Below are positions 18,502 to 21,156 of a stretch of 64,000 nucleotides of DNA, in pieces. Location of the stretch: assembly GCA_903855995.1 (NCBI GenBank), contig CAIOAN010000007.1:186001-250000 (forward strand), read 5' to 3'. The translations under genes and the position numbers were made by a program. Within the stretch, counting starts at the first letter, position 1; each line of letters begins with the position of its first letter. The DNA comes from an uncultured Opitutia bacterium. Its GTDB lineage: Bacteria > Verrucomicrobiota > Verrucomicrobiia > Opitutales > UBA953. Below the pieces are notes generated by a model that was given only the letters and a program-made list of their open reading frames with translations, was not told the DNA's origin and made no database searches.

Positions 18502-18508
18502 TTTAACG

Positions 18509-18547
18509 CCAGCCCGTTCGATTTAACCCGAACGGGCTGGTCTCTTT
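18509..18547 (+). terminator. Terminator after tRNA-Phe
   Basis: A perfect 12-bp stem CCAGCCCGTTCG/CGAACGGGCTGG with an 8-nt loop, then TCTCTTT. Confidence 0.85.
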
Positions 18548-19345: not shown

Positions 19346-19375
19346 TTGACCACAGGCGCGATGCCTTTGCCTTTG
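19346..19375 (+). promoter_or_regulatory. Candidate promoter of the cimA leader
   Basis: TTGACC, 18 nt, CCTTTG, the same -35/-10 type as the tRNA-Phe and tRNA-Asn promoters. It would start transcription about 30 nt before the leader peptide ATG. Confidence 0.4.
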
Positions 19376-19413
19376 ACTCTCCCGGGGCCGTCCCTTGGAG
19401 TCGGGGCTTCGTC

Positions 19414-19503
19414 ATGGAATCCCTGGCACAGTCTTCGACCTCCCTCCGCGCTGCGGTTGGTCGTGCCATCATTCCGGCGATTATTACCATCATCGGGCTC
19501 TGA
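19414..19503 (+). CDS. Isoleucine-rich leader peptide of cimA
   Basis: A 29-codon open frame, too short for ordinary gene calling. Its last 12 residues read AIIPAIITIIGL and end with TGA at 19501-19503: six Ile codons and a Leu within 12 codons, next to an otherwise ordinary first half (MESLAQSSTSLRAAVGR). This is the composition of ilv/leu-type attenuator peptides, in which ribosomes stall at Ile or Leu codons when the charged tRNA is scarce. The gene downstream, cimA, makes the precursor of isoleucine, which fits exactly. No Shine-Dalgarno sequence is seen before the ATG. Confidence 0.75.
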   Translation: MESLAQSSTSLRAAVGRAIIPAIITIIGL

Positions 19504-19559
19504 GCCCGCTGAACGGAACGCCCGACGGGCGACTCCCCGTTCCGCGGCGCCCGGAACGG
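19494..19559 (+). promoter_or_regulatory. Attenuator hairpins upstream of cimA
   Basis: Four pairing elements follow the Ile codons. CGGGCT/AGCCCG (19494-19508) folds over the leader stop codon. CGGAACG (19514-19520) can pair with CGTTCCG (19538-19544), enclosing a small CGCCC/GGGCG hairpin (19519-19531). The same CCGTTCCG (19537-19544) can instead pair with CGGAACGG (19552-19559), a perfect 8-bp stem. The two foldings exclude each other, as antiterminator and terminator do. The tail after 19559 is C/T-rich (CCCCCTCCCTTTACCTCCC) rather than a T-run, so the stop may be Rho-dependent or act on translation. Confidence 0.65.
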
Positions 19560-19596
19560 CCCCCTCCCTTTACCTCCCTTTCTCACCTACACCACC

Positions 19597-21156
19597 ATGG
19601 CACGCTCCATCGAAATCTATGATACCACCCTCCGCGACGGCTCGCAGGGGCAGGGCATTCATTTCACCGTCGATGACAAGCTGCGCATCGCCATCGAGCT
19701 TGAGCGCTTCGGCATGACCTACATTGAGGGTGGCTGGCCGGGCTCCAATCCTCGTGACATCGAGTTCTTCGCCCGGGCCAAGAAGATCAAGTTCAAGAAC
19801 GCCAAGCTGGCGGCCTTCGGCTCGACCCGCCGCAAGGGGGTGCGTGCCTCTGAAGATGCCCAGGTTCGCGGCTTGCTCGAGGTCGATACCCCGGTGGTTA
19901 CGATCTACGGCAAGACTTCGGCCCTCCATGTCCGTGAAGTCCTCCGCTGCTCGCCCGAGGAGAACCTCGAGATGATCCGTGATACGGTTGCTTTCCTGAA
20001 GTCTCATCGCCGCGAGGTCGTCTACGACTGCGAACACGCCATCGACGGCTGGAAGGAAGATCCGGCCTACGCCATCGCCTCCATGCTCGCCGCCGTCGAA
20101 GGCGGGGCTGATCGCATCGTGCTTTGCGACACCAATGGTGGTTCGTTGCCCGCTGAAGTCGCTGCGGCGACCCGCGCCGCGATGGCCGCCCTTAAAAAAG
20201 TCCCCGTCGGCATCCACACGCACGACGACGCCGGCCTCGGCCTCGCCAACGCGCTCGCCTCACTTGAAGCGGGTGCCTCGCACGTCCAGGGCACCGTCAA
20301 TGGCATCGGCGAACGCACGGGTAATTGCGACCTCACGGCCGTGATTCCCTGCGCCCAGTTGAAGTTCGGTTGGAAGTGTGTGTCCTCGACCTCGCTCAAG
20401 GGCCTCGCCGGCCTGTCGCGTTTCGTCGACGGCGTCGCCAATCTCGCCCCCGATCCGCGCCGGCCGTGGGTCGGCACCGCGGCCTTCGCCCATAAGGGCG
20501 GTACGCACGTGGACGCTGTCCGGAAGTTCTCCGCGGCCTATGAGCACGTCGATCCAACCGTCGTCGGCAACGAGCGCACGGTGCTCGTCAGTGACCAATC
20601 CGGACGGAGCAATATCACGATGAAGGCCAAGTCGCTCGGCATCGACCTCGACCGCGATTCGCCCGCCACGGCCACGGCCCTCGATGAGCTTAAGAAACTT
20701 GAGCACGCCGGCTGGAGTTTTGAAGACGCCGAGGCGTCCCTGGCATTGCTCCTCCGCCGTCATATCGGTAAGAGCAAGGCCGTGCCGTTTGAAGTCGCTT
20801 CCTATCACGTCACCGCGCGCGGCGCCAAGGGCTCGGCCTACTGCGAAGCGGTGGTCCGTGTGAATATCGGCGGCGTTGAGACCTTGACGGTTGCGGAAGG
20901 TGACGGTCCTGTGCACGCCCTTGACCAGGCCTTGCGTTCCGCGCTGGTGAAGTCCTTCCCGAAACTCGCGAAGGTCAGCCTCGTGGATTACAAGGTCCGC
21001 ATCCTCGGCGGTGCCGACGGCACCGCGGCCAAGACCCGCGTGGTCATCCGCTCTTCCGACGGCAAGGCTTCCTGGGGGACGGTCGGCGTCAGTGAAAACC
21101 TCGTCGAAGCCTCGCTGCAGGCGATCGTCGACGGTTACGCCCACGCCCTCGCTTGA
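19597..21156 (+). CDS. cimA: Citramalate synthase
   Basis: A 519-residue member of the isopropylmalate/homocitrate/citramalate synthase family. It condenses acetyl-CoA with pyruvate to (R)-citramalate, the entry to the threonine-independent isoleucine route. Seen: IYDTTLRDGSQGQGIHFTVDDK at the start, YIEGGWPGSNPRDIEFF (typical of citramalate synthases rather than LeuA), the metal-binding HTHDDAGLGLAN, GTVNGIGERTGNCDL, and a C-terminal LeuA-type allosteric domain from about residue 390 (AYCEAVVRVNIGGVETL). The Ile-rich leader directly upstream supports the isoleucine role over a leucine role. The ATG at 19597 is 93 nt after the leader stop. Confidence 0.9.
   Translation: MARSIEIYDTTLRDGSQGQGIHFTVDDKLRIAIELERFGMTYIEGGWPGSNPRDIEFFARAKKIKFKNAKLAAFGSTRRKGVRASEDAQVRGLLEVDTPVVTIYGKTSALHVREVLRCSPEENLEMIRDTVAFLKSHRREVVYDCEHAIDGWKEDPAYAIASMLAAVEGGADRIVLCDTNGGSLPAEVAAATRAAMAALKKVPVGIHTHDDAGLGLANALASLEAGASHVQGTVNGIGERTGNCDLTAVIPCAQLKFGWKCVSSTSLKGLAGLSRFVDGVANLAPDPRRPWVGTAAFAHKGGTHVDAVRKFSAAYEHVDPTVVGNERTVLVSDQSGRSNITMKAKSLGIDLDRDSPATATALDELKKLEHAGWSFEDAEASLALLLRRHIGKSKAVPFEVASYHVTARGAKGSAYCEAVVRVNIGGVETLTVAEGDGPVHALDQALRSALVKSFPKLAKVSLVDYKVRILGGADGTAAKTRVVIRSSDGKASWGTVGVSENLVEASLQAIVDGYAHALA

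Follow-up and report, generated by a model that had tools for sequence, protein, structure and literature searches.

A candidate isoleucine leader-peptide attenuator upstream of the citramalate synthase gene cimA in an Opitutales bacterium

The window, by which we mean the whole analysed stretch of 64,000 nucleotides, comes from a freshwater group of the Opitutales (Opitutae) and not from the genus Verrucomicrobium, to which the initial annotation had referred. On the forward strand it carries the citramalate synthase gene cimA (19597-21156; TIGR00977, 643.5 bits with a cut-off of 450). No threonine dehydratase was found above the cut-off in the genome, and cimA is therefore probably the entry to isoleucine. 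Upstream of cimA and on the same strand lies an open reading frame of 29 codons (19414-19503) encoding MESLAQSSTSLRAAVGRAIIPAIITIIGL followed by a stop codon, the end of which is separated from the cimA start by 93 nt. Both this frame and its isoleucine run were found exactly at the coordinates at which they had initially been described. Six of the last 11 codons are isoleucine codons (19468, 19471, 19480, 19483, 19489, and 19492; control region 19468-19494, forward strand), so that a run of codons for the pathway product precedes the gene as in attenuators of the trp/his/ilv type. The window contains, counting both strands, 1026 distinct open reading frames of 8-60 codons; this is the only one of them with six isoleucines within 11 codons, and 2000 Markov shuffles of the region upstream of cimA yielded no such frame.

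A putative promoter for the leader was identified on the forward strand, consisting of the -35-like sequence TTGACT (19373-19378) and, after a 17-nt spacer, the -10-like sequence TGGAGT (19396-19401). The sequence TTTGACTC is present upstream of the leader in 43 of 43 members of the genus, with TTGACT about 39-42 nt 5' of the leader start codon in all cases in which that codon was picked. The -10-like sequence, as TGGAGT or TGAAGT, usually follows at a distance of 17-18 nt, and its position is kept as TGGAGT, TGAAGT, TTTAGT, and similar sequences in most members. From this arrangement transcription is predicted to start at about 19408, a few nucleotides 5' of the leader ATG, which would make the leader mRNA nearly leaderless.

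We searched for cimA in 79 genomes of the family to which the window belongs and found the gene in most of them. Wherever the upstream sequence sufficed, which was the case at 43 same-genus loci, the leader frame lies directly upstream of cimA, and the ATG, the frame, the isoleucine run, the stop codon, and three hairpins (see below) are kept in each of these 43 genomes. The alignment of relatives that had been proposed as a check on the frame thus came out in its favour. The 38 distinct same-genus sequences all contain the leader ATG, and the insertions and deletions within the frame comprise whole codons. While the N-terminal half of the peptide is variable, its end reads GRAxIPAIIxIIGL or a close form, and pN/pS is about 0.56 for the C-terminal 16 codons as compared with about 1.2 in the N-terminal part. 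The isoleucine columns are conserved with exchange between ATT and ATC, and in part of the genus the isoleucine pairs are separated by threonine.

The leader is absent from genus g5 of the same family, the cimA of which is closely related. A CimA tree places the sequences of the window's genus and of g5 among those of other orders, with which they share up to 61-64% identity; the identity to CimA of their own order is 47-53%, and the own-order clade, which includes genus g2, has a support of 0.976. This grouping makes horizontal acquisition likely, and the tree suggests that cimA of the window's genus and g5 was acquired laterally, perhaps together with the attenuator. Three Opitutales loci from other families (L236, L269, and L272) have isoleucine-rich short open reading frames in front of a different cimA lineage (MNFLITAGQTKSISAEIISIII; ...LGLIIGALIIS; ...NIITGDTLTIIS). 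These are unrelated to the window's element, do not contain its motif, and are possibly independent isoleucine leaders.

Inverted repeats are present downstream of and partly within the isoleucine run (19490-19500/19502-19512, 19506-19516/19537-19547, 19514-19520/19538-19544, and 19537-19544/19552-19559), and the RNA after the run folds more stably than shuffled sequences (z = -2.9; 1 of 200 shuffles as stable). Three hairpins on the forward strand can be assigned to these repeats. The first, P1 (19494-19508), pairs CGGGCT with AGCCCG (19494-19499/19503-19508) and has the leader stop codon in and beside its loop; it is paired in 93.8% of cells, and one pair is changed on both sides, from C-G to G-C in two members. 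The second, P2 (19506-19547), is the putative antiterminator, in which CCGCTGAACGG (19506-19516) pairs with CCGTTCCGCGG (19537-19547) around an inner stem (19519-19523/19527-19531), with 96.8% of cells paired. The third, P3 (19537-19559), is the putative off hairpin, formed by CCGTTCCG (19537-19544) and CGGAACGG (19552-19559); it resembles a terminator without a U-run and is paired in 94.4% of cells.

As had been proposed, the overlapping repeats share 19537-19544: CCGTTCCG is common to P2 and P3, which are mutually exclusive and are both kept in 94-98% of cells. The upstream arm, by contrast, had to be reassigned. The sequence CGGAACG (19514-19520), initially taken as this arm, is not conserved and reads CGGACCG, CGGCTCG, CGGATCG, or CGGTGTG in relatives, whereas the conserved partner of CCGTTCCGCGG is CCGCTGAACGG. 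The anticipated covariation was borne out in part, with compensatory changes in P1 and in the inner P2 stem; the pairs of the long P2 stem are mostly invariant, and for this reason their covariation support is thin. Three pairs of the inner stem show compensatory changes, a number reached by 3 of 500 shuffles. P3 is maintained mainly through U-A/U-G exchange (8 members), and in two loci (L031 and L032) its partner is shifted with the pairing retained. In cells paired and covariation score the full set of hairpins exceeded 500 of 500 shuffles.

The nucleotides of CCGCTGAACGG and CCGTTCCGCGG are very strongly conserved, as would also be expected of a riboswitch or a protein-binding RNA element that overlaps a nonfunctional open reading frame by chance. 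We regard this explanation as scarcely credible, given the whole-codon insertions and deletions, the universal ATG, and the pN/pS of 0.56 in the isoleucine-rich part; moreover, the related elements described below are preceded by isoleucine-rich leaders of divergent sequence. Nor did the leader match any Rfam cis-regulatory RNA (T-box, ilvB-OMG, Leu_leader, and others) at the family threshold when the window and the related loci were scanned.

The trp/his/ilv attenuators of Proteobacteria form 1:2, 2:3, and 3:4 hairpins; a ribosome stalled at the control codons frees segment 2, and one that terminates covers it. The cimA leader resembles them in the logic of its hairpins and in the placement of the stop codon and the control codons. 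By analogy, at a shortage of isoleucine the ribosome would stall at the Ile codons 19480-19494 and CCGCTGAACGG would be free to pair with CCGTTCCGCGG; the resulting P2 would block P3, and transcription would continue into cimA. With plentiful isoleucine the ribosome would reach the stop codon inside P1 and cover the 5' arm of P2, which would allow P3 to form from CCGTTCCG and CGGAACGG and expression to drop.

We simulated ribosome positions in 15 members of the genus, the ribosome being taken to cover the RNA to a distance of 14 nt from the A site. Most of the 15 members favour P2 when the ribosome is stalled near the last isoleucine codons (L001: P2 0.95, P3 0.01), and most favour P3 when it has reached the stop codon (L001: P2 0.00, P3 0.97). 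These outcomes agree with expression of cimA at low isoleucine and with its shut-off otherwise. The freeing of segment 2 by the stalled ribosome, as in the trp/his/ilv systems, was thus reproduced in silico in most of the 15 members; L031 and L040 are exceptions, in which P2 is not preferred to P3 at the modelled isoleucine stall. In the genus P2 (-18 to -23 kcal/mol) is more stable than P3 (-10 to -16 kcal/mol), so that most members would reside in P2 without a ribosome.

No U-run follows the last stem in the window or in the other members of the genus, and the intrinsic terminator of trp/his/ilv-type attenuators is thus lacking here. Terminators of the ordinary type with a U-tract are used elsewhere in the window's genome. 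A strong hairpin (GCCAGCCCGTTCG...CGAACGGGCTGG, 18508-18541 of the window) with a weak T-tract lies 3' of a tRNA-Phe gene and is possibly a second U-poor terminator.

A covariance model built from the genus only was scanned over 384 genomes of the class and gave four matches outside the order, three of which lie directly upstream of cimA. The remaining match (L150) precedes a gene for an ABC-type ATPase and was judged to be due to chance. With a second model, built from those outside-order and related loci, 12 matches with E < 1e-9 were obtained, all of them upstream of cimA; four of the 12 genomes had also contributed to the model. They comprise all 10 of the genomes sampled from family f36 and both of the two from family f31. 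Weaker matches (E > 1e-7) had cimA near none of those fetched and are presumably mostly generic terminators. In the window's genome the element was not seen a second time, only weak matches with E > 2 being found there. The distribution is patchy, as most other sampled cimA genes of the class are without the element. In a group of Limisphaerales-like loci without a leader (L108-L140) we observed a different conserved start region, with a recurrent TTTGCC followed after 17 or 18 nt by TAGATA/GATATT upstream of cimA and, next to the start of the gene, a small inverted repeat (CCGC...GCGG).

The related leaders end in isoleucine-rich stretches (PSLIASIIIGHPGR, GGSIIIAITISPDGRR, FDAISILSSIELIREIPSHR, and PIPVIAILIADISAMIPVTPVR), most of the isoleucine codons lying 5-16 codons ahead of the stop; L116 and L127 have little isoleucine in the leader. 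The stem CCCCGTTCCGC/GCGGAACGGGG follows, and after it TTTT or a longer T-tract in most loci. In f36, f31, and other relatives the equivalent of P3 is therefore an intrinsic terminator with a U-tract, and the anatomy of the elements in the related families is that of a canonical attenuator. The order of stabilities is opposite to that in the window's genus, with P2 at -4 to -12.5 kcal/mol and P3 at -20 to -27 kcal/mol. The genus element and those of f36 and f31 likely share ancestry, as judged from the common core GCTGAACG, CCCCGTTCCGC, and CGGAACGG. The f36 and f31 relatives show the tested features of transcription attenuators; the window's element lacks the U-run and is hence classed as a variant. 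The missing T-run, which had been noted as an unusual property of the mechanism, is real in the window, but it is a trait of the window's genus and not of all related elements.

As the other families have a canonical U-tract terminator for their downstream stem, we consider the reading as an attenuator well founded. The coding frame, the isoleucine codons, the partly covarying stems, their mutual exclusion, the geometry, and the cimA-linked relatives, taken together in the comparison, indicate that the region 19373-19596 is very probably a leader-peptide attenuator of cimA, which would sense charged tRNA-Ile by way of the translating ribosome. The initial proposal that an attenuator controls cimA is strengthened in the same way by the conservation in the genus, the compensatory changes, and the cimA-linked elements with canonical terminators in other families. 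Against this reading stand the missing U-run in a genome that does employ U-tract terminators, the reversed order of hairpin stabilities, the behaviour of L031 and L040 in the simulation, and the thin covariation of the long P2 stem.

The missing U-run raises the question at which level the off step would act. Between P3 and cimA lies a spacer (19560-19596, forward strand) that by its base counts is pyrimidine-rich and free of G and has no Shine-Dalgarno sequence. We considered a translational attenuation, in which leader translation would switch hairpins that control the access of ribosomes to the cimA start and not transcription. The cimA start region, free of a Shine-Dalgarno sequence and of G and unstructured, would fit such a mechanism, as would the U-less P3 and an 8-nt complement (CGTGCCAT/ATGGCACG) between the leader and the cimA start of the window. 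Yet the unpaired probability from -15 to +15 around the cimA ATG has a mean of 0.63 in the free, the isoleucine-stalled, and the stop-bound state alike (17 members), and this equal accessibility makes a masking of the start unlikely; a start alternately masked and free, as in erm-type translational attenuators, was not found in these three states. Sequestration of the start codon by CGTGCCAT/ATGGCACG was rejected, since the complement shows no covariation in relatives and accessibility is unchanged. In addition, 37 nt separate the end of P3 from the cimA ATG, and the related elements use transcription terminators. We consider translational attenuation unlikely.

The same spacer could serve as a rut site, the C-rich, G-free tract after P3 being bound by Rho under the control of the leader ribosome or of P2/P3. 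The 36 nt before cimA contain no G and 21 C, the G content being the lowest among the 46 long open reading frames of the window with upstream sequence, and the absence of a U-run after P3 would also agree with Rho-dependent attenuation. Against it, no rho gene, the product of which is present in tnaC-type systems, was found above the family cut-off in the one genome searched, which is 97.4% complete (TIGR00767, best about 23 bits versus a cut-off of 509), and this weakens termination by Rho. Furthermore, leuA too is preceded by a pyrimidine-rich region without a Shine-Dalgarno sequence, and the tract, located 3' of both hairpins, would be exposed in either state. Rho-dependent attenuation is accordingly very improbable.

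We therefore return to transcription attenuation by the leader peptide. Its off step is most likely transcriptional and would be exerted by P3 without a U-run, either as termination or as a long pause. Tentatively, and at somewhat less than an even chance, we propose that in this genus, in which Rho was undetected, an attenuator derived from canonical relatives has lost its U-run and inverted its hairpin stabilities and still switches cimA through U-less termination or regulated pausing.

Neither ilvB nor leuA gave a comparable leader. A frame in front of ilvB (MPGVGLGVGVGLGLFCLN) was rejected as a second leader peptide, since it is an array of GGGGTA repeats which the other members of the genus have in different form or not at all, and in front of leuA only the terminator of the upstream gene was found. 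About 100 nt upstream of ilvB (L277-L290) we observed a conserved promoter-like block (TTATTCACACTTGCCCC...CTTTTCTAACCC) followed by a short G+C hairpin adjoining the ilvB start, with variable GGGGTA/CCCCTA arrays farther upstream in some members.

Compared with the attenuators of Proteobacteria, a class treated in PMC2965389, the 3:4 hairpin of the window's genus lacks the U-run and is less stable than the 2:3 hairpin, whereas f36, f31, and other Verrucomicrobiota are canonical. The ilvB-II motif, the ilvBNC attenuator of Corynebacterium (PMC10272879, PMC11857589), likewise combines a short uORF rich in branched-chain amino acids with alternative hairpins in front of a gene of the isoleucine/valine pathway. 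It controls ilvB, has a uORF rich in all three branched-chain codons, and ends in a U-tract terminator (PMC10272879, PMC11857589); the cimA leader, in contrast, contains mainly isoleucine, precedes only cimA, belongs to another phylum, and has no Rfam match. The ilvB-OMG and Leptospira ilvB motifs have predicted uORFs that are rich in threonine as well as in branched-chain codons, which recalls the threonine in part of the window's genus, but concern another gene and another structure (PMC10272879). The cys leaders of Mycobacterium, for which an involvement of Rho has been suggested, share with the cimA leader a run of control codons near the leader stop, the lack of an intrinsic terminator, and pyrimidine tracts before the gene; they have no conserved hairpins, whereas those of the cimA leader are conserved and Rho was not found (PMC1262725).

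A survey from 2010 described a leader-peptide system in Firmicutes and stated that until then such systems had been demonstrated only in Proteobacteria and Actinobacteria (PMC2965389). In the open-licence literature we found no earlier description of cimA attenuation or of attenuators in Verrucomicrobiota. Through the cimA leader Verrucomicrobiota would join the groups known to have amino-acid leader attenuators, and cimA the genes under such control. It also offers a natural comparison: some families have canonical terminators, and another has a version without a U-run and with inverted hairpin stabilities. This comparison makes it directly testable whether a hairpin without a U-run may end transcription in an apparently Rho-less bacterium.
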